Below, piece by piece: positions 27,651-64,000 of a DNA stretch of 64,000 bases. The position numbers and the translations under genes are program-made. Origin of the DNA: Methanobrevibacter millerae (GTDB lineage: Archaea > Methanobacteriota > Methanobacteria > Methanobacteriales > Methanobacteriaceae). Under the pieces are notes generated by a model, which worked only from the letters and a program-made list of their open reading frames with translations, was not told where the DNA came from and did not search any database. How positions within the stretch are numbered: position 1 is the first letter of the stretch; each line of letters opens with the position of its first letter. The stretch is from contig NZ_FMXB01000013.1 in assembly GCF_900103415.1 (NCBI RefSeq), positions 1 to 64,000 on the forward strand, given 5' to 3'.

Positions 27651-28868
27651 TTATTCGAATGGTATTGTTGGAGCGAGGTGATATTCCCATTTGAAAGATA
27701 AATCCACGATTTCACCATCTTTTACGTCCTTTTTATATATGTATGAATCGTCATGGCATACCGTAGTCTTTTCATTAAGGATATCATCGCCGTTTATCTT
27801 GAAATTTGTGTAGTCAACGTAACTCGGTACGCGCTTTCCTGATATGTTGCGGATATCGGGGCCTCTTAGATAAACGGTTAATTCTCCGTCGTTGACGCAT
27901 TTCAATTTGATGTCAAATGATTGGGCTTCCGTTCTTAAAACAGCACCTTTTCCTTCCTTCCATTCAAACCAGCCTGGAAAATCAACATCTACTTCATCGG
28001 GTGCATTTAGGATTTCAACTGTGGAATCTCTATTTCTGTTGTTTAGAAGGTCTATCCTTGCGCTGTCTGATGTCTTGTGGATGTTCACGTCAAAGTATCC
28101 TGCATGCAAATCGGCACAGGCATTGAAAATCTTTGAGCATTCCGGAGAGTAATTTTCCTTTATGAACATTTTGTATTCAAAGAAGTTGATTCCTGCCGGG
28201 AACATGTGCCAGGAAGTGCATAATGCATGGAAAAGGTCTTTGATATGATCTCTGGTGGTATCGTCAACTATAAATGCTCCGATATTGGACATGCTGTCGG
28301 TTTTTAAGATCCATTTTTCGTTGGAACGCACTGATCCGAACAGTAATCCGGTACAGAACTGCACTGAATCGATGTTCTTGAATTGTTTTCTGGAATATCT
28401 CAGCATGTTTAAGTGGATATCGTGAAGAATTACTACACAGCCGTCCTTAAGCTGAGGCAGAGTTGCTAAAAATGTTAAACATTCGCCGGGCATTACGTGG
28501 GTCGTATCGATTATTATGCAGTCGATATCTTCTCCGATTTCTTTGTAAACGTCCAGGTAATCGTATCCGTTGTACAGTTTCCAGTTTTCGGTGTTGTCAA
28601 GTTCTGAGGCCATAAAACCCGTCAGCTTTGTATTGTCTTTCCACCAGTATGTTGAAATGTCCACTGAAAAGAGCTTTGTATCTTTATCTTTCCATTTAAG
28701 GAGGTTGACAGTGTTTCCTCCTGATGCCACTCCTATTTCAACGATTTTTTTGGGGTTGTATGTTTCTATGAAATGTTTTAAAAACCAGATTTCATCTTCA
28801 CTCATTTCTACAAGTGTCGTATTGTCATCTTCACTTATTTTTCCAGCTATCAATTCAATTTCGGTCAT
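27651..28868 (-). CDS. SAM-dependent methyltransferase-like protein with C-terminal beta domain
   Basis: 405 residues. Residues ~35-200 form a class I methyltransferase fold of the Methyltransf_24 type: glycine motif KIVEIGVASGGNTVNLL (about 39-55), acidic FSVDIS, and IDCIIIDTTHVMPGE and VVILHDIH in the second half. From about residue 285 a separate beta-rich domain follows (ELTVYLRGPDIRNISGKRVP, then DYTNFKINGDDI); I know similar LRGPD-type domains from surface-polysaccharide proteins of rumen microbes. A role in modifying cell-surface glycans is inferred; no substrate can be named. Confidence 0.7.
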   Translation of the reverse strand: MTEIELIAGKISEDDNTTLVEMSEDEIWFLKHFIETYNPKKIVEIGVASGGNTVNLLKWKDKDTKLFSVDISTYWWKDNTKLTGFMASELDNTENWKLYNGYDYLDVYKEIGEDIDCIIIDTTHVMPGECLTFLATLPQLKDGCVVILHDIHLNMLRYSRKQFKNIDSVQFCTGLLFGSVRSNEKWILKTDSMSNIGAFIVDDTTRDHIKDLFHALCTSWHMFPAGINFFEYKMFIKENYSPECSKIFNACADLHAGYFDVNIHKTSDSARIDLLNNRNRDSTVEILNAPDEVDVDFPGWFEWKEGKGAVLRTEAQSFDIKLKCVNDGELTVYLRGPDIRNISGKRVPSYVDYTNFKINGDDILNEKTTVCHDDSYIYKKDVKDGEIVDLSFKWEYHLAPTIPFE

Positions 28869-40907: not shown

Positions 40908-41390
40908 ATGGTTCGTGCTTATACAAGAAGAGATTATATTAGAAAAACCCCAAATTCAAGAATCGTACAATACGATATGGGTAATTTAAGAGAAGAATTT
41001 CCAGTTTCAGTCAGTTTAGCTGTTAAAAAGCCAGCTCAAATTAGACACAATTCCTTAGAAGCAGCTCGTATTGCTTCAAACAGGTTAATGCAAAGGGCAG
41101 CCGGAAGGTTAGGTTATCACCTTAAGTTAAGAGTATACCCTCACCAAATCGTAAGGGAAAACCCAATGGCAACCGGCGCAGGTGCAGATAGGGTTCAATC
41201 CGGTATGAGAAACGCTTTCGGTAAACCTATCAGTGTTGAAGCTATTGTTAAAAAAGATCAAAGAATCATCACAGTTGATATTCAGCCAAAACACTTTGAA
41301 GAAGCAAAGATTGCATTGAAAAGGGCAGGTATGAAATTGCCAGTTCCTTGTAAAGTTGTTGTTGACAAAGGTGCAGAATTATTAAAATAG
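40908..41390 (+). CDS. rpl10e: Ribosomal protein L10e (uL16)
   Basis: 160-residue archaeal uL16-type protein of the large ribosomal subunit, near the tRNA sites. Starts [20 protein letters not shown] and has [19 protein letters not shown] near residue 69 and the [18 protein letters not shown] segment expected for the family. AGGA precedes the ATG, and AT-rich TATA-like sequence (TTTATTATATAAT) lies about 40 bp ahead. It stands alone and marks the end of the adhesin block; after it base composition drops sharply. Confidence 0.95.
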
Positions 41391-42247: not shown

Positions 42248-43966
42248 ATGAAAAAAAATAATAATTATGGATTATATTTTAATTCAAAACAGGATGGAAA
42301 GAAAATTATTAATCACCATTTTAATTTTAATAATATTGATGATGAAAAGTTTAAAGAAGAAGCATTGTTTATTTATAATTCTATAAATGAAGGAAAAATA
42401 GATTTAAATCCTGATGAAAAAGAAGAAATATTTCAAGAACTAGAATTAATTTTAAATCATTTTAATTCATCCCAATCAAATGAAAAATCTAAAGATTCAC
42501 TAATTTCTAAAAATTTGGATAATGAAATTAATTCATATTTTAGAGTTAATCAAAATATGTCTGAGAAATATTCTTCTTCTGAAAATAGTTTTAATCCCCA
42601 TGTTGAATCCATGGCTTTAAGTAATGATTCTGAGAATAAATCTTTGTTGGAGGGGAATATTGATAATAAAAACAATGAAAAATCATATATTGGGGATTTC
42701 ATTTCTGTGGAAGATGATGTTTCTGGTGAGTTATCTGTTGTTGATGTTGAAGATGAGGAAGTTCCTACTGATGATGAAGTATTTGATGAACCATTGGAGA
42801 TTAACATTGAAAAAGAGTTACCAATTCCAGAGGAAGGTACGGATTATGTGCTGGAAGATGCTACTGGTGAAGATGTAGCAACTAATGTTGTGGGAGAGGA
42901 ACCAACTGAAACACAGAAGGTGTTAGATGAAAAATCTGGTGAGTTATCTGTTGATGATGCATTAAATGAGTTAGTCGATGATGAATCTTCTATATTAAAT
43001 AATGATTTAGTTATTGAAGATTCTTTTGATGATTCTATTTCTGTGGAAGATGATGTTTCTGATGAGTTATCTGTTGTTGATGTGGAAGATGATGTTTCTG
43101 ATGAGTTATCTGTTGTTGATGTGGAAGATGATGTTTCTGATGAGTTATCTGTGGATGATGCATTAAATGGTTTAATTGAAAATTATTCTAGTGAAGTAGC
43201 GATTAAAGTTGAAAATTTATCAATGCAATTTAAAGTTTCTAAAGATAAAATTGATACATTAAAAGAACTAATTATTAGGACAATTAAACGAAATAAATCT
43301 GAATCTAAAATTGTTACTGCATTGGATGGTATTTCTTTTGAAATTCCTAAAGGGGATCGTGTGGGAGTCATTGGTTTTAATGCGGCTGGAAAAAGTACTC
43401 TTCTTAAAGTTTTAGCAGGTGTTTATGATGCTACTGGAGGTACTATTGAAACTAAAGGAAAAATTGCACCATTACTTGAATTAGGTGCAGGTTTTGATTT
43501 TAATTATACTGGGAAAGATAATATATTTTTATATGGTGCATTTTTAGGTTATTCTGAAGATTTTCTAAAAGAAAGATATGATGAAATATTAGAATTTTCA
43601 GAGTTAGGGGATGCAATTAATTATCATGTTAAAACATATTCTTCAGGTATGAGGGCAAAATTAGCTTTTTCAATTGCAACTATTGTTGAACCAGATATTT
43701 TAATATTGGATGAGATTCTATCTGTAGGAGATATTAAATTTAGAAAGAAAAGTTCTGATAAAATACGTTCTTTAATAAATTCTGGTATTACAGTTTTACT
43801 TGTTTCACATTCTGTTGGTCAAATAAGAGATTTATGTAATAAAGCAATTTGGATTGATGAAGGTAAATTAATAATGTATGGTGAAGTAAATGAAGTTTGT
43901 GATGCTTATATAAAAGCAGCAGCTAATGCTACTAAAGATCAATTAGAAAATATACAGTTGAATTAA
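42248..43966 (+). CDS. Polysaccharide export ATPase (Wzt/TagH-like) with long acidic N-terminal extension
   Basis: 572 residues. The C-terminal ~255 are the ABC ATPase: IKVENLSMQFKV at about 318, Walker A GFNAAGKST near 376-384 (family usually GxNGAGKST), signature SSGMRAKLAFS near 470 and Walker B DILILDE near 489, and an H-loop LLVSHS. The first ~315 residues are unlike normal ABC ATPases: an acidic low-complexity region with a 13-residue repeat (DDVSDELSVVDVE) in three tandem copies from residue 268 (43049 on). The function of the extension is unknown. Partner of the permease just upstream. Confidence 0.85.
   Translation: MKKNNNYGLYFNSKQDGKKIINHHFNFNNIDDEKFKEEALFIYNSINEGKIDLNPDEKEEIFQELELILNHFNSSQSNEKSKDSLISKNLDNEINSYFRVNQNMSEKYSSSENSFNPHVESMALSNDSENKSLLEGNIDNKNNEKSYIGDFISVEDDVSGELSVVDVEDEEVPTDDEVFDEPLEINIEKELPIPEEGTDYVLEDATGEDVATNVVGEEPTETQKVLDEKSGELSVDDALNELVDDESSILNNDLVIEDSFDDSISVEDDVSDELSVVDVEDDVSDELSVVDVEDDVSDELSVDDALNGLIENYSSEVAIKVENLSMQFKVSKDKIDTLKELIIRTIKRNKSESKIVTALDGISFEIPKGDRVGVIGFNAAGKSTLLKVLAGVYDATGGTIETKGKIAPLLELGAGFDFNYTGKDNIFLYGAFLGYSEDFLKERYDEILEFSELGDAINYHVKTYSSGMRAKLAFSIATIVEPDILILDEILSVGDIKFRKKSSDKIRSLINSGITVLLVSHSVGQIRDLCNKAIWIDEGKLIMYGEVNEVCDAYIKAAANATKDQLENIQLN
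43049..43165 (+). repeat. 39-bp tandem repeat in the ATPase gene
   Basis: Three copies (43049-43087, 43088-43126, 43127 on, the last diverging near its end) coding for DDVSDELSVVDVE. The first two copies are nearly identical at the DNA level, so copy number may vary. Confidence 0.8.
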
Positions 43967-56011: not shown

Positions 56012-56818
56012 ATGGAAACTGTAAGTAATAGAGATGAAATTTCATCATTAAATGATAATAAAATCAATGGCAATCCTAAAATGGAACGCTCCAAAATTAC
56101 TTTTGCAGGTAAAAATAATATTTTGTTCTGCGAAAATAATGTTAATTTAGTTAATTGTAATATAGTATTTAAGGGAAACGATTCGTTAATTTATTTATCC
56201 AGTTGTAAAGGGAATTATTCTTTAAATATGCAAGTAGTTCATGATTCAGTAATTTACATAGGTAAAAATAATGATTTGATTCCACCAATCAATCTTAATG
56301 TACAGGAACATCAGAATTTAATAATTGGTGAAGATTGCAGTATTGGAAGCAATACTAATATCCGAACGGGTGATGCACATATTATTTATGATGAAGAAAG
56401 CAAAGCTAGATTTAATAAAGGTTCAAGCGTTATTATCGGGGATCATGTCTGGTTAGGCCACCAAATTTATGTTGATAAAGGCGTTATTATAGGTTCTGGT
56501 TCTGTTATTGAAAATAATTCTTATATTGCATCTAATTCAATATTAAAATCTAATAGTATTTATCAAGGAAATCCTGCAAAACTCATAAAAGAAAATGTAT
56601 TTTTCACAAAGGATTATGTTGCAAACTTCACAAAGGAAGATTCACGTACTTTTGATACATATAGTAGTAGGGTTTTCTTATATGATGTTGTTGATGGTGA
56701 AACATTAGATATTAAAAAAGTAGATGGTTTATTATCTAGATTTGATGTAAATGAAAAATTAGATTTCGTGCAAAAATTGTTTATTCAAAATAAAAGACAT
56801 AATAGGTTTTCAATTTAA
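56012..56818 (+). CDS. Left-handed beta-helix acyltransferase, copy 1
   Basis: 268 residues of hexapeptide-repeat (CatB/Xat-like) type. A first beta part (~25-105) is followed by the acetyltransferase coil (LIIGEDCSIGSN near 107, GDHVWLGHQIYV near 148, IGSGSVIENN near 166). DAHIIYD (~125) places the probable catalytic histidine. Likely O-acetylates a surface sugar. It converges on a paralog with a 4-bp overlap; the two 3' ends form a hairpin. Confidence 0.78.
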   Translation: METVSNRDEISSLNDNKINGNPKMERSKITFAGKNNILFCENNVNLVNCNIVFKGNDSLIYLSSCKGNYSLNMQVVHDSVIYIGKNNDLIPPINLNVQEHQNLIIGEDCSIGSNTNIRTGDAHIIYDEESKARFNKGSSVIIGDHVWLGHQIYVDKGVIIGSGSVIENNSYIASNSILKSNSIYQGNPAKLIKENVFFTKDYVANFTKEDSRTFDTYSSRVFLYDVVDGETLDIKKVDGLLSRFDVNEKLDFVQKLFIQNKRHNRFSI

Positions 56819-56832
56819 ATATAAAACCTATT
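56801..56832. terminator. Bidirectional hairpin at the overlapping ends of two acyltransferase genes
   Basis: AATAGGTTTT (56801-56810) pairs perfectly with AAAACCTATT (56823-56832), 10 bp; both stop codons are in the loop. Both arms code for the same residues (NRF) in the two opposed genes, and T-rich sequence follows in both directions. Confidence 0.65.
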
Positions 56833-57600
56833 TTTATTTTTATTATTTCTTAATTCTAAAATTTTATTAATTTTTAAATCCATATTTTCGGTACTAGTAA
56901 TCTCTTTTATTTGTTCAAATCCACTTCCAGAATTTATATTTGAATAAATCCATTGATCGCTAGTATAATTCATTGATTCTTCTGTTTCTTTTTTTGTGTA
57001 TCTATGAACAGTCCTACCGTCGAAAAATATGTTTCTTTTAATCTGTTGTGGAGGATTGCCTGCCCAACTTGAGTTAGATTCTATTTTTTTACCACTCATA
57101 ACACTTTTTGCACCAATGATGCTTCCAGATCCTATTTCTGCTCCTCTTAAAATCAATGCTTCTTGAGCTATCCAAACATGATCCCCTATGTAAACATCTT
57201 CAGTTAGATTTATTCTTTCCATTGTGGCCATATCGTAAATTAAATGTGGATCTGCTAAACGAATCCAGATTCCATGAGCAAATAAACAATCTTTCCCTAT
57301 AAATACGCTTTTTTCTTCAGATAAAATCATATATAATTTTGAATTGAAATAATTATTTTCATCAATGAATAAAACTGAATTATTAAAAATATTAACAAAT
57401 AGCTGATAATGATTATAATTTGAAGAAAGGTATACAATTGAGTTATTCCCATTAAAAAGTAAAGTACTTCCATTTAAAACAACATTTTCTTCACATATTA
57501 AAATATTATTTTCTCCATTAAATATAATTTCACTATTTATTAATTCAGGTGAGTTATAAAAAATTTTGTTATTTTTTTCATCTTCTTTTATTATTTTCAT
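56815..57600 (-). CDS. Left-handed beta-helix acyltransferase, copy 2
   Basis: 261 residues, the same layout as copy 1: beta part (~18-90), VFIGKDCLFAHG near 96, DPHLIYD near 115 with the probable catalytic histidine, GDHVWIAQEALI near 136, IGSGSIIGAKSVM. Ends NRFYI while copy 1 ends NRFSI, showing common origin. The copies have diverged strongly elsewhere. Likely acts on a different surface-polymer site. Confidence 0.78.
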   Translation of the reverse strand: MKIIKEDEKNNKIFYNSPELINSEIIFNGENNILICEENVVLNGSTLLFNGNNSIVYLSSNYNHYQLFVNIFNNSVLFIDENNYFNSKLYMILSEEKSVFIGKDCLFAHGIWIRLADPHLIYDMATMERINLTEDVYIGDHVWIAQEALILRGAEIGSGSIIGAKSVMSGKKIESNSSWAGNPPQQIKRNIFFDGRTVHRYTKKETEESMNYTSDQWIYSNINSGSGFEQIKEITSTENMDLKINKILELRNNKNKNRFYI

Positions 57601-58269: not shown

Positions 58270-59640
58270 ATGGACAAGGATATTAAATTTTTAAAAGAGG
58301 AAATAAAAAAATTAAATAATCAAATCAATAATCTCAATAAAGTTCAAAAGAAAAATGAAAATACTTTAGATTCACATTACACTCTTTTAAATACATTATA
58401 CTTAAATTTTAATCTTAAACCAAAAGGAGTACTTAAAGGTACACAGGATTTATGTTTATCTTTATTAGATTTTATTTCTAATGTTTGCATGAAATATGAT
58501 TTGGAATGGTGGTTAGATTATGGAAATTTATTGGGTGCTGTTAGAGATAAAGATTATGTTCCTTGGGATGATGATATTGATATTGGCATGACAAGGAAAG
58601 ATTGTTTAAAATTTTTAGAAGTTATTGATGATGAAATTAAATATTATCATTTAGATGATATTCTTTTTGTTGTTCCACAAAAAATTATTAAAGAAAACAG
58701 CATTATTGCATTCACACAAATATCTATAAAAAAAGATGGAGGATTATATGCGGGGCTTGATGTTTTTCCAATTGATTTTATTCGTAGTTATCCCGAAAAT
58801 GTTGAAAAAGAATTTTTTAATGCTAAATGTGAATATCATATAAATCTTTTAAATGGAATGGATAAAAAAGATGTAATTAATAAATATTATGATGATTATA
58901 ATTTATCATATGAATATCAGGACTTTTTTATTCCATGTATTGAAACTTATTGGGGGAATACACGAAAATTCACAGTTTTTGATTCAGAAAAACTTTTTCC
59001 CTTAAAAAAAATTGAGTTTCATGGGAAAATATATCCATGTCCAAACAATCCTCATTATATTACATCAAAAAACTATGGAAAAGACTATAAAAATATTCCT
59101 AGAAATGTTAAATTACATAGAAGAGTAAGTGATTTAAAACAGAAAAAAAATGTAAATATGAATTTTAAAAATTTTTTAAAACGATTTGAAGAAGTTAATG
59201 ATGAATTTTCATCAAAAATTCTGCATTCAAAAAATGTAGTTTATTTTAGTAAGAATCAAGATAGATATTTGAATATTAATCAGGAAATACCTAAAAATCA
59301 TGTGATAAAATTTAACTTTAATAGACAATCTTCAAAAAATTGTCGGGGATATATTCAAATAGGAACTGATTGGAATAATAGTATTTTTATTGGACAAATA
59401 GGTGCTGGAAATACATTTGGAATATGGTTAAGAAAAAATGGCATAACTGATTATCATAATACTCCGATTCCCTCAAATTCATTTTTAGGTATTGAATATA
59501 CTTATAAAGATAATACTCATACTTTAAAAGTTGATGATGAAATCGTTCTTCAAATTACAAGTAAAAATTATGAATATAATAATTTATTGAATATAATAGT
59601 TGATAATAATTCTAAAATAACTGATTTAGTAATTTATTGA
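58270..59640 (+). CDS. LicD family phosphotransferase with C-terminal extra domain
   Basis: 456 residues. After an N-terminal coiled coil (~1-40) comes the LicD domain: LEWWLDYGNLLGAVRDKDYVPW and then the metal-binding DDDID (D100-D104). LicD proteins move phosphocholine or related groups from a CDP-carrier onto surface glycans. From about residue 340 a separate ~115-residue beta-rich domain begins (KNCRGYIQIG, NNSIFIGQI), shared with the next protein. Here the donated group could be a phosphonate, because a phosphonate module follows. Confidence 0.85.
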   Translation: MDKDIKFLKEEIKKLNNQINNLNKVQKKNENTLDSHYTLLNTLYLNFNLKPKGVLKGTQDLCLSLLDFISNVCMKYDLEWWLDYGNLLGAVRDKDYVPWDDDIDIGMTRKDCLKFLEVIDDEIKYYHLDDILFVVPQKIIKENSIIAFTQISIKKDGGLYAGLDVFPIDFIRSYPENVEKEFFNAKCEYHINLLNGMDKKDVINKYYDDYNLSYEYQDFFIPCIETYWGNTRKFTVFDSEKLFPLKKIEFHGKIYPCPNNPHYITSKNYGKDYKNIPRNVKLHRRVSDLKQKKNVNMNFKNFLKRFEEVNDEFSSKILHSKNVVYFSKNQDRYLNINQEIPKNHVIKFNFNRQSSKNCRGYIQIGTDWNNSIFIGQIGAGNTFGIWLRKNGITDYHNTPIPSNSFLGIEYTYKDNTHTLKVDDEIVLQITSKNYEYNNLLNIIVDNNSKITDLVIY

Positions 59641-59715
59641 TTAAATATTACAAATTATATTTATTTCTTGAAAAAATGTTTTAAAATCAAAAAATTGCAT
59701 TAGAAGTGATGAAAT

Positions 59716-61122
59716 ATGGAAAACTTAGTTGATTATATTATTAAATTAAATATGGATCAAATTGAAGATTATAAATTTCCATTAGATATACCTTTTGGAT
59801 TAGAAATTAATTATAAAAATGTAAAATATTGTTTAATTGTTCGATTTTCATCGAAAAACAAAAATCTAATCTGTTGCGGGCCAGGAGCCCATGCAAGAGA
59901 TGAAAGGACTTCGAAAGGAATTTTAAAAACCCCTCCTTTTTTTCATCGATGGTCTTGGTATAAATATTTTGAAGAATCTTTCATAGCATATGCAGATCCA
60001 ATTTTCTTTTATGATGATTATATACGTTTAGGATGGTTTGTTGGTGATAAAAAACAATGGTATTTAGAAACTCTATCAATAATTATAAAAAAACTTTCTA
60101 TTAATCAGGGAATTATGCATGAAAATATATTGTTTTATGGTAGTTCTGGGGGCGGATTTACTTCAGTAGGGCTTGGAACATTAATTAAAGGATCAAAAGT
60201 TCTTATAAACAATTCCCAACTTAATGTGATGAATTATCATGAAACACATGTGAATAATCTTTTTAGAATATTATATGATGAGTTTCCAAATTTATCAAAA
60301 AAAGAAATTATTAATCTTATTGATTATCGATTAGATACAATTAAATTATTCAACAGAGAGAAATATATGCCTCCAATTACGTATTATGTTAATATTTTAT
60401 CACAGCATGATATTTATAACCATTGCATACCCTTCATTAAAGAGATATGTGATTTGGAATATTTTGAAAACAATTTTCAAATAAATTTTTATAAAGAAGT
60501 AAAAAAAAGACCCCATAGTTCATTATCAGTAACAGAGTCAATAAAAATTGTTAAAAATTTTTGCAAACAACATTTATATAATAATAAATATAATTATGAT
60601 ATTTTTAATAATTTAATTGAAGAGAATGATTTCTTAAAAAATAAAAATAAATATTTGGTAGAAGAAAATAAATTATTAAATCAAATGTTATATGATTATG
60701 GAAAATATGTCTATTTTAAATCAAAATTTGATACTGGTTCAACTAAATTAAATTTATTATTGCCCATAAATTATTCATTAAAATTTCAGTTGAATAAAAC
60801 CAAATCAAAAAATTGTAGAGGTTATATCCAGATAGGTATTAATTGGAATAATAGTATTTTTATTGGACAAATTAGTGATGAAGTATTTGGAATTTGGCTA
60901 AGAAAAGATGGTGAAACTATGATGAAAAATTCCGAAATTCCATTAAATAAAGATAATATTATAGAATATTCTTATCATGATAATATACATATTTTTAAAG
61001 TTAATAATAAAATTTTATATTCTAATGAAACGACGAAATATAATTACAATAAATTACTTACAATTGTTGAAGATGAAAATACTTTTTTAACAGATTTAAA
61101 AATTTATACTGAATATAAATAA
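59716..61122 (+). CDS. Alpha/beta hydrolase-like protein with the same C-terminal domain
   Basis: 468 residues. Residues ~1-290 look like an alpha/beta hydrolase: nucleophile elbow Y141-G-S-S144-G-G-G, with a candidate acid and histidine further on (HPHSS-like text, RPHSSLS near 267). Weakly similar proteins accompany polysaccharide acetylation systems, so esterase or acyltransferase activity on the surface polymer is possible. A coiled coil (~300-325) leads to a C-terminal domain (~347-468) that copies the one in LicD, including a stretch of 31 identical bases. Confidence 0.65.
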   Translation: MENLVDYIIKLNMDQIEDYKFPLDIPFGLEINYKNVKYCLIVRFSSKNKNLICCGPGAHARDERTSKGILKTPPFFHRWSWYKYFEESFIAYADPIFFYDDYIRLGWFVGDKKQWYLETLSIIIKKLSINQGIMHENILFYGSSGGGFTSVGLGTLIKGSKVLINNSQLNVMNYHETHVNNLFRILYDEFPNLSKKEIINLIDYRLDTIKLFNREKYMPPITYYVNILSQHDIYNHCIPFIKEICDLEYFENNFQINFYKEVKKRPHSSLSVTESIKIVKNFCKQHLYNNKYNYDIFNNLIEENDFLKNKNKYLVEENKLLNQMLYDYGKYVYFKSKFDTGSTKLNLLLPINYSLKFQLNKTKSKNCRGYIQIGINWNNSIFIGQISDEVFGIWLRKDGETMMKNSEIPLNKDNIIEYSYHDNIHIFKVNNKILYSNETTKYNYNKLLTIVEDENTFLTDLKIYTEYK

Positions 61123-61369
61123 TTTTTTTAAATAATATTTATAGATACTCATAAGGGTAATTATTGTAAATTATTTCAAGAATGATTTGTTCTAATTATT
61201 TTTAGAATGGAAATTTTAATGTCTATTATACTTTAAAATTATATCAATTTTCTAAAAACCATAATTAATATTTATTATTACAATTAATTATTTATAATTT
61301 AATCACAAATATTTACTTATATGATGGAGTTTTAATAAAAATTCAATGCATATTTTTGGAGTGATTAAC
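61123..61369 (+). promoter_or_regulatory. AT-rich gap before the phosphonate module
   Basis: 247 bp, over 80% A+T, no ORF of interest. Possible TATA-like stretch near 61290 (ATTTATAATTTAATC). A GGAGTGAT ribosome site at 61358 sets the start of the next gene. Probably holds the promoter for the phosphonate genes. Confidence 0.4.
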
Positions 61370-62071
61370 ATGAAAATCATAATATTAAATTCTGGTTTGG
61401 GTTCTAGATTAGGCAATTTAACTAAAAATCTTCCAAAATCTTTAGTCAATATTAATAATGATGAAACAATTTTTTCAAGAGCTATTAATATTTTATCTAA
61501 TTACTCTAAAGATTTTATTATTACAACCGGATATTTAAATAATGTTTTAATCAAATATTCAAAAAATAATTATTCTAATTTGAATTTTACTTTTGTCCAT
61601 AATTCTGTTTATGATAAAACTAATTATATTAAATCTTTAGATTTGATTGATGAAATTAATGAGGATATTATTCTCTTACATGGGGATTTAGTATTTTCTA
61701 GTGATGTTGCAGAAAAAATAATCTATGCAAAAGAATCCTCAGTTGTTATTGATTCATCAATTGATTTACCTAAAGATGATTTTAAAGCTAAAATTGTAGA
61801 TAATAAAGTAAATTATATTTCTACTAAGTATTTTGGTGATGATGCTGTGGCTTGCCAACCATTTTACAAATTAAAAAAAAATGACTGGAAAGAATGGAAA
61901 AATAAAATTCATGAATTCTGCCAGCAGGGAAAAACTGATGTTTATGCAGAAAATGCATTAAATACTATACTTAATCAAATTACTATTCGTCCATTAGATA
62001 TTATGGGGGATTTATGTACAGAAATTGATGATCAAAATGATTTAAAGAGGGTGAAGGAGTTATTAAAATGA
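61370..62071 (+). CDS. LicC/PntC-like nucleotidyltransferase
   Basis: 233 residues of the sugar-phosphate/choline-phosphate nucleotidyltransferase fold: LNSGLGSRLGNLTKNLPKSLV (about 6-26) is the NTP-binding loop with the catalytic Arg and Lys, and LLHGDLVFS near 103 has the metal-binding Asp. Such enzymes make CDP-choline (LicC) or CMP-AEP (PntC) for LicD-type transfer. A phosphonate acceptor is likely because it overlaps the PEP mutase gene by 4 bp (ATGA). Start is ATG 61370 after GGAGTGAT; the frame is open to 61346. Confidence 0.78.
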   Translation: MKIIILNSGLGSRLGNLTKNLPKSLVNINNDETIFSRAINILSNYSKDFIITTGYLNNVLIKYSKNNYSNLNFTFVHNSVYDKTNYIKSLDLIDEINEDIILLHGDLVFSSDVAEKIIYAKESSVVIDSSIDLPKDDFKAKIVDNKVNYISTKYFGDDAVACQPFYKLKKNDWKEWKNKIHEFCQQGKTDVYAENALNTILNQITIRPLDIMGDLCTEIDDQNDLKRVKELLK

Positions 62072-63363
62072 AAACTGTTTATATTGCTATTAGTGCAGAT
62101 ATATTGCATCACGGGCATATTAATTTAATTAAAAAAGCTTCAGAATATGGAAATCTTATTGTTGGTGTTTTAACTGACGAAGTTGTAGCTACATATAAAA
62201 GATTTCCTGTATTGGATTATGAACAACGTACTTTCATAATTAAAAATATTGAGGGAGTTTCAGATGTTGTTCCGCAATATACTTTGGATTATACGGAAAA
62301 TTTAAAAAAATATAGGCCAGATTATGTATTCCATGGTGATGATTGGAAAAAAGGTGTTCAAAGCCAAATCAGACAAAATGTAATAAACACACTAAGTGAA
62401 TGGAATGGAGAATTAATAGAAATTCCATATACTGAAGATATAAGTATTGATCAAATTAATAACCTAGTTAAAAATGCAGGTTCTGTTCCAGAATCAAGAA
62501 GAGGTAAATTAAAAAAATTAATTTCGCTTAAACCTATTGTTCGTACAATGGAAGCTCATAATGGTCTTTCTGCATTAGTTGTTGAAAATGCAAAAGTCGT
62601 TAAGGATGAAAAAATTAATTCTTTTGATGCAATTTGGGTTAGTAGCTTAACAGACAGTACTGCTAAAGGAAAACCCGATATAGAACTTGTAGACATGACC
62701 TCTAGAATTAATACAATCAACGAAATAATGGAAGTTTCATCAAAACCAATTATTTTGGATGGGGATACTGGAGGATTAATTGAACATTTTGTTTTTAATA
62801 TTAAAACAATTGAAAGAATGGGCGTTTCAGCAATTATTATTGAGGATAAAATAGGATTAAAGAAAAATTCGCTATTTGGTACTGATGTCGAGCAAACACA
62901 AGATTCAATCGAAAACTTCTGTGAAAAAATAAAAGCAGGTAAAAAGGCCTTAATCACTGATGAATTTATGATTATTGCAAGAATTGAAAGTTTAATATTA
63001 AAACAAGGTATGGATGATGCAATCAATCGTGCTAAAGCATATATTAATGCGGGAGCTGATGGAATCATGATACATAGTAGGGAAAAAGAACCTGATGAGA
63101 TATTTGAATTTTGTGAAAAGTTCAACGAATTTGCACCTAAGGTACCTTTAGTTGTTGTCCCAACATCATTTAACCAAGTTTATGAAGATGAATTCGCTAA
63201 AAAAGGAGTAAATATAGTTATTTATGCAAATCATTTAATTAGGAGTGCTTATCCTTCCATGATGGAAACTGCAACAAAAATACTTGAAAATGAACGTTGC
63301 AAAGAAGTTGATGATATTTGTTTGCCAATTAAAGAAATACTTACTTTGATTCCTGACGAGTGA
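62068..63363 (+). CDS. Cytidylyltransferase-phosphoenolpyruvate mutase fusion
   Basis: 431 residues, two domains. Residues 1-~135: a HxGH cytidylyltransferase (ISADILHHGHINL, H14-H17) of the TagD/GCT type with RPDYVFHGDDW near 85. Residues ~150-431: phosphoenolpyruvate mutase (AepX/PepM), which rearranges PEP to phosphonopyruvate, the first step of nearly all C-P bond natural products. The D-G-D of ILDGDTGG is at 231-233 and the diagnostic EDKxxxxxNS at 259-268 (EDKIGLKKNS), separating it from isocitrate-lyase-type relatives. It overlaps the LicC-like gene and is followed 5 bp later by the decarboxylase gene. Confidence 0.92.
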   Translation: MKTVYIAISADILHHGHINLIKKASEYGNLIVGVLTDEVVATYKRFPVLDYEQRTFIIKNIEGVSDVVPQYTLDYTENLKKYRPDYVFHGDDWKKGVQSQIRQNVINTLSEWNGELIEIPYTEDISIDQINNLVKNAGSVPESRRGKLKKLISLKPIVRTMEAHNGLSALVVENAKVVKDEKINSFDAIWVSSLTDSTAKGKPDIELVDMTSRINTINEIMEVSSKPIILDGDTGGLIEHFVFNIKTIERMGVSAIIIEDKIGLKKNSLFGTDVEQTQDSIENFCEKIKAGKKALITDEFMIIARIESLILKQGMDDAINRAKAYINAGADGIMIHSREKEPDEIFEFCEKFNEFAPKVPLVVVPTSFNQVYEDEFAKKGVNIVIYANHLIRSAYPSMMETATKILENERCKEVDDICLPIKEILTLIPDE

Positions 63364-63368
63364 TTAAG

Positions 63369-64000
63369 ATGATTAATGTTGAAGATTTTGTCAAATACTT
63401 AAAAAATATTAACATAGATTTCTTTACGGGAGTTCCAGATTCACAATTATCCTCTTTTGCAGATTATGTTGAAGAAAATTGTGAAAATATTATTGCAGCA
63501 AATGAAGGTAATGCTTTAGCCATTGCTAGTGGATATAATTTATCAACAGGAAATTATCCTTTAGTTTACTTGCAAAATTCCGGATTAGGAAATATTGTTA
63601 ATCCAGTTACTTCTTTGACTCATAGTGAAGTTTATTCGATTCCTGTTGTATATTTAATTGGATGGAGAGGCCAACCAGGGGTTCATGATGAACCTCAGCA
63701 TATCAAACAGGGAGCAATTACTTTAGATCTACTAAATTTACTGGATATTAAATATACTGTTATTTCAAATGAATCTAATTTTGATGAACTTAAAGAAATA
63801 TTTGAAAATGATTTTATTAATCAATTAAATTGTGGAAAAAGTGTGGCTGTTGTTGTTTCTAAAGGTGCATTCGAAGAATATAAAATTAAAAAAGAAAATA
63901 ACAATATTTTAAGCAGAGAAAAGGCTATCCAAACTATTGTTGATTTTTTGTCTGAAAAAGATATGGTCGTTTCCACTACAGGCAAGTCTTCAAGAGAATT
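63369..64000 (+). CDS. Phosphonopyruvate decarboxylase, 5' part
   Basis: Thiamine-diphosphate enzyme that pulls the unfavourable PEP mutase reaction by turning phosphonopyruvate into phosphonoacetaldehyde. 210 codons are present and the frame is open to the window edge. Family features: FTGVPDSQLSSF (about 19-30), the cofactor-activating glutamate in NEGNALAIASGY (near 50), QNSGLGNIVNP, and WRGQPGVHDEPQH (near 100). The thiamine-pyrophosphate GDG motif should lie beyond the edge. An AEP transaminase may follow it. Confidence 0.9.
   Translation, partial: MINVEDFVKYLKNINIDFFTGVPDSQLSSFADYVEENCENIIAANEGNALAIASGYNLSTGNYPLVYLQNSGLGNIVNPVTSLTHSEVYSIPVVYLIGWRGQPGVHDEPQHIKQGAITLDLLNLLDIKYTVISNESNFDELKEIFENDFINQLNCGKSVAVVVSKGAFEEYKIKKENNNILSREKAIQTIVDFLSEKDMVVSTTGKSSRE

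Follow-up and report, generated by a model that had tools for sequence, protein, structure and literature searches.

The capsule O-acetyltransferase CsaC of Neisseria meningitidis serogroup A works on a phosphodiester polymer that has already been assembled, and its serine S114 accepts the acetyl group (PMC7501274). Its active site includes an unusual residue, Q138, whose loss costs about 97% of the activity and which, according to the authors, is conserved in uncharacterised bacterial proteins (PMC7501274). Bacterial gene clusters for CMP-phosphonates are accompanied by LicD-like transferases (PMC6697681). Relatives of both kinds of enzyme are encoded by neighbouring genes in the DNA that we analysed (64,000 nucleotides of Methanobrevibacter millerae, a gut-type methanogen; positions 1 to 64,000 of contig NZ_FMXB01000013.1; hereafter, the window), and the two proteins end in a common C-terminal domain, which we named module K. 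The features under discussion are:

27687-28058, minus strand: module R, the C-terminus of a methyltransferase (27651-28868); a comparator for module sharing, unrelated in sequence to K
58270-59640, plus strand: LicD-family transferase, 456 amino acids, with C-terminal module K (Pfam PF04991, 81.3 bits; cut-off 22.6)
59224-59637, plus strand: module K copy 1, the C-terminus of LicD (49% identity to copy 2; all-beta AlphaFold2 model; ConA-like, galectin, and CBM66 fold matches)
59716-61122, plus strand: CsaC-like relative of the capsule O-acetyltransferases with an alpha/beta fold, 468 amino acids, with a coiled coil and C-terminal module K (SacC/CsaC profile and fold matches)
60145-60147, plus strand: putative nucleophile Ser144 in a GSSGGG elbow, aligned with CsaC S114 and conserved in 31 of 32 family members (profile alignment)
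60217-60219, plus strand: Gln168, aligned with CsaC Q138 (a catalytic residue outside the triad) and conserved in 32 of 32 (profile alignment)
60409-60411, plus strand: candidate acid Asp232, conserved in 29 of 32 (family alignment)
60514-60516, plus strand: candidate catalytic His267, conserved in 32 of 32 (family alignment)
60697-61107, plus strand: module K copy 2, the C-terminus of the CsaC-like enzyme, residues 328-464 (BLASTP against copy 1)
61346-62071, plus strand: sugar/alkyl-phosphate nucleotidyltransferase (NTP_transferase; PF00483, 27.2 bits; cut-off 21.2)
62068-63363, plus strand: cytidylyltransferase-phosphoenolpyruvate mutase fusion, for phosphonate synthesis and CMP activation (TIGR02320, 425 bits, cut-off 320; PF01467, 52.9 bits)
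63360-63998, plus strand: phosphonopyruvate decarboxylase, which runs past the end of the window and is complete where the contig continues (L125:3361-4488; TIGR03297, 457.9 bits; cut-off 312.5)

GC content lies near 0.40 in the first 40 kb, a part of the window that includes what we take, from the translations, to be methyl-coenzyme M reductase and related genes (4.5-23 kb), and it is 0.21-0.30 from 42 kb onward. This sharp fall marks the start of an island (41458-64000) right after a ribosomal-protein-like gene (40908-41390). The low-GC stretch encodes an ABC-2 exporter and ATPase, a TagF-type GT2/glycerophosphotransferase fusion, further transferases, and then LicD and the CsaC-like enzyme; phosphonate and glycan genes continue past the window on the same contig. 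Judged by its gene content, the stretch is a surface-polymer island, and we infer that the polymer is teichoic-acid-like. The exporter ATPase (42248-43966) has a long acidic N-terminal extension of near-identical repeats (DDVSDELSVVDVE), followed by the ABC domain. Shortly before the LicD gene lie two similar-looking genes for hexapeptide-repeat acyltransferases (56012-56818 on the plus strand and 56815-57600 on the minus strand), which are arranged tail to tail with a 4-base overlap.

LicD matches the whole PF04991 profile (positions 1-227 of 227) above the curated cut-off, and it probably transfers a phosphoalkyl group. By their profile matches, the genes downstream of it are a route to a CMP-activated phosphonate, which spans 61346-63998 in this methanogen island and goes on into L125:3361-5572. 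An iron alcohol dehydrogenase then follows the phosphonate genes; its best match is to a phosphonate-type enzyme, below the curated cut-off, and going by this match, the product is possibly hydroxyethylphosphonate. The pathway's presence at the locus suggests that hydroxyethylphosphonate would be found on the surface polymer. Because the phosphonate genes come directly after LicD and its neighbour, and because LicD-like transferases accompany such clusters in bacteria, LicD may be the enzyme that puts the phosphonate on the polymer.

The neighbour of LicD had been described in a preliminary description as an alpha/beta hydrolase. The fold is right, but among characterised proteins the nearest is CsaC, an O-acetyltransferase rather than a hydrolase. 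The protein has no match in Pfam, and the sole meaningful match of a profile built from 23 family members was to SacC/CsaC (6yus/6yuo, E = 3.6e-7). The core of a full-length model was predicted with very high confidence (pLDDT 85-99 per block), and the best five fold matches of this model in the PDB are all CsaC (E = 4e-9). (The K copy of LicD was left out of the acyltransferase alignment behind the model because it was misaligned when mixed in.) Conservation of residues was counted over 32 archaeal and bacterial members of the family; the sequence alignment to CsaC stops before Asp232 and His267. Most likely, as the matches to CsaC suggest, the enzyme acylates a polymer, and we infer that the group transferred is acetyl. 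The CsaC-like family is present in 39 of the 139 genomes of the Methanobacteriaceae that we searched and also in many bacteria, chiefly Bacillota; among genome contigs, the nearest relatives of the window's enzyme are from Methanobrevibacter.

LicD and CsaC-like genes also adjoin in other Methanobacteriaceae (genomes G016, G010, G113, and G124; loci L105, L106, L107, L108, and L109). K is absent from these pairs, and the repeated adjacency supports the view that the two enzymes work together. Two proteins (L125:18748-19293, at the end of the window's contig, and L110:16987-18246) have a CsaC-like start of about 60 residues and then a long coiled coil, without the catalytic part, so that the N-terminal region of the CsaC-like enzyme seems, from these frames, to recur as a module in its own right. 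A CsaC-like protein of genome G042 (L116:6079-7665) has a different, ConA-like-looking insert between its catalytic part and its coiled coil, with a weak MAM-type match in Pfam (E = 0.05).

That two unrelated enzymes encoded next to each other end in the same domain had been noticed previously, and both open reading frames are as described. BLASTP aligns the copies of K (residues 319-456 of LicD and 328-464 of its neighbour) over 138 columns at 49% identity (E = 7e-34), which excludes a chance likeness. The shared part comprises about 125-138 residues (59224-59637 and 60697-61107), rather than the ~115 that had been given. In the DNA, a repeat finder reports 76% identity between 59290-59407 and 60763-60880, and the identical run of 31 bases (59369-59399 and 60842-60872) that had been pointed out is real. 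The closest relative of LicD (48% identical, in G021) has a frame of just 352 amino acids, and the closest relative of the CsaC-like enzyme (65% identical, in G042) has a frame of 305 amino acids, which ends after the catalytic part. As neither relative has K, K does not belong to either parent family and was added to both enzymes as a module.

A profile search with the domain, which had been proposed as a check, matched no named family: nothing in Pfam, NCBIfam, PHROGs, or the sequences in the PDB came close to a cut-off for K, which hence matches no lectin family in these collections. The weak matches in Pfam were far under the cut-off (DnaJ-like_C11_C, E = 0.02; DUF7656, E = 0.09), and a scan of both copies with the Pfam galectin model found no match. 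The organism's own genome holds just the two copies. Only chance matches were found in the 139 genomes of the family (single-sequence and two-row profile searches), in 391 genomes of a bacterial class, and in the seven genomes of the comparison loci; a profile search of 152 genomes of the phylum gave chance matches and nothing convincing. A tblastn search of plasmids and phages was empty, as were pattern scans of genome contigs and viral contigs, which depend on nearly exact words, so that distant relatives would escape them. We rejected several candidates on inspection: L035 (which reached E = 4e-30 when a small set was searched iteratively) is an unrelated frame of 97 amino acids; L213 (E = 2.8e-4) is a chance frame that overlaps another reading frame; and frames of about 1080 amino acids from the search of the family's genomes, which from their sequence are presumably isoleucyl-tRNA synthetase, are chance matches. 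K has no sequence relation to the insert in L116, the tail in L124, or module R, which are terminal domains of related enzymes. No K-bearing enzyme pair was found in any other genome that we searched, so there is no independent case of co-inheritance. Literature searches for ConA-like domains with LicD and for LicD in Methanobrevibacter found nothing relevant. K is a new family, so far an orphan, which its predicted fold places in a known superfamily; the arrangement of domains is new as well.

The earlier guess of a beta-sandwich gained support from structure prediction. An AlphaFold2 model of K, which rests on an alignment of two sequences and is of moderate confidence, is all-beta with 11 strands (mean pLDDT 72, pTM 0.71), and in the full-length model of the CsaC-like enzyme the K part scored lower than the core (pLDDT about 44-73 per block). 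In a Foldseek search of the PDB with the K model, galectins, CBM66, and LamG domains rank first (TM scores of 0.63-0.70, E from 2.6e-5), and the matches in a viral library include many proteins annotated as concanavalin-A-like lectins. A beta-sandwich of the ConA-like superfamily is the best-supported fold for K in these predictions, and the resemblance to galectins is in fold alone. ConA-like folds also act as protein-binding or purely structural domains. Considering both the predicted fold and the partner enzymes, K would bind a sugar.

Our preferred reading, to which we give a probability of roughly 55%, is that K is a lectin-like accessory module that would tether two decorating enzymes to one polymer. 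Two non-homologous decorating enzymes of one surface glycopolymer would each have gained a C-terminal ConA-like sandwich similar to that of galectins and CBM66. The LicD-type transferase would probably add a CMP-activated phosphonate or phosphate group. In the CsaC-type O-acyltransferase, Ser144 would accept an acyl group from acyl-CoA, Gln168 would position the acyl-serine, and His267 would activate a hydroxyl of the sugar. K would probably bind the teichoic-acid-like chain while it is being made, or the lipid-linked form of it, which would keep LicD and the acyltransferase on one chain ahead of ABC export. Targeting of both enzymes to a common polymer is plausible from the gene content, as the partners are of polymer-decorating kinds and the cluster is teichoic-acid-like; we counted CsaC's action on a phosphodiester polymer, together with the TagF-type fusion and the ABC exporter of the island, in favour of decoration of a common polymer. 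The lectin domains of polypeptide GalNAc-transferases are a precedent for enzymes tethered by a lectin.

Terminal modules are shared by neighbouring enzymes elsewhere in the Methanobacteriaceae. Module R, which has no match in Pfam, has about 125 residues with invariant R, D, G, R, R, P, Y, and H columns, and HHalign finds no sequence relation between R and K (probability 0.4%). We found 97 copies of R in 82 open reading frames from 34 of the 139 genomes, on LicD, GT2, CsaC-like, DUF6270, and methyltransferase-type proteins (the loci include L087, L088, L095, L108, L109, L111, L117, and L118). Another R-bearing frame lies within 5 kb for 31 of the R-bearing frames (eight genomes). In G124, a CsaC-like enzyme and an adjacent DUF6270 protein both have R at the C-terminus, an arrangement that, as far as the gene order goes, parallels the K pair of the window. 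The terminal parts of the relatives of both K partners are varied (coiled coils with a KSWKITKPLRK tail, methyltransferase, GT2, or other domains). On these comparisons of sequence, the sharing of a terminal module by neighbouring polymer enzymes is a habit of the family, of which K is a rare example. A more tentative idea, which we think has a lesser chance of being right, is that surface-polymer islands in this family use interchangeable, island-specific, lectin-like modules as address tags, with K as the tag of this island and R as that of many relatives; by acquiring the same tag, unrelated tailoring enzymes of a pathway would be held on the same polymer.

The main rival is that K is a protein-protein docking module: the two K domains would touch each other, or both would bind the same third protein, for example the ABC exporter or the TagF-like polymerase. 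Both enzymes also have coiled-coil stretches, and relatives of the acyltransferase carry coiled coils and the recurring KSWKITKPLRK tail in place of K, so the C-terminus may serve in assembly; the sharing of R by various kinds of adjacent enzyme is likewise compatible with one common docking partner. However, the best fold matches of K are carbohydrate-binding proteins and nothing points to a partner, and we consider docking unlikely.

We think it still less probable that K is a passive extension that was duplicated within the island by recombination, with a role limited to stability or oligomerisation. Islands of this kind often recombine, K is present in one species among those searched, and the closest relatives of the enzymes work without it. 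The divergence of the two copies argues against this explanation. Over the whole domain, the copies are 63% identical in DNA, and 70% of the identical residues are also encoded by the same codon, as compared to 62% expected from codon usage alone. Residues 37-71 of K form a patch with 28 of 34 residues identical (82%), versus 39 of 103 elsewhere (38%, p = 8e-6), and the 31-base run falls inside it. Silent sites agree in 20 of 28 cases in the patch and in 27 of 39 in the rest (p = 1). That the silent sites of the patch are no more alike than those of the rest points to selection at the protein level, not a fresh copy, as the reason that the patch was kept. By the same counts, the duplication is old relative to the turnover of silent sites, which appear to be near saturation. 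To be 82% identical in spite of this, the patch requires purifying selection on both copies. A conserved patch of 34 residues with near-saturated silent sites is as expected of a functional face, which would suit the lectin-like tether. Recent copying, which the preliminary description had proposed as the source of the likeness, is very improbable given these identities in DNA and codons and the silent sites of the patch. Runs of 31 bases or more turned up in just 1.2% of simulations in which the silent sites were fully saturated (p about 0.012), which leaves room for a very short conversion tract.

To our knowledge, little is known about the decoration of archaeal surface polymers. Here, one methanogen locus joins an O-acyltransferase of the CsaC type, which is familiar from capsule synthesis in bacteria, with a LicD transferase and a phosphonate pathway, and two of its enzymes share an unnamed module that is predicted to be lectin-like. 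If K and the widespread module R do bind glycan, this would explain how unrelated enzymes of the same pathway find one chain, and the modules would allow orphan enzymes to be assigned to a polymer.

How does the locus compare with known systems? LicD resembles other members of PF04991 in matching the full profile and in being encoded in a cell-surface polymer cluster, but it carries K, and its donor, judged by the neighbouring genes, is probably a CMP-phosphonate rather than CDP-choline. The locus shares the fusion of PepM with PF01467, the phosphonopyruvate decarboxylase, and a LicD nearby with PntC-type clusters for CMP-phosphonate tailoring (PMC6697681), but it is archaeal, and the iron alcohol dehydrogenase (match below the cut-off) suggests hydroxyethylphosphonate rather than aminoethylphosphonate. 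K is similar to galectins, CBM66, LamG, and other members of the ConA-like lectin/glucanase superfamily in its predicted two-sheet beta-sandwich (TM 0.63-0.70), without a detectable sequence match to any member family. Module R is like K in being a terminal module on surface-polymer enzymes, often in neighbouring genes, and unlike it in sequence. Finally, the window's acyltransferase and CsaC/SacC (PDB 6yuo, 6yuq, 6yus, and 6yuv) are alike in their alpha/beta-hydrolase fold, in the GXSXG nucleophile at S114 and the glutamine at Q138, and in the setting of a polymer with phosphodiester chemistry; the window's enzyme differs in having just 14-15% identity over the fold, in being archaeal, and in the addition of a coiled coil and module K.
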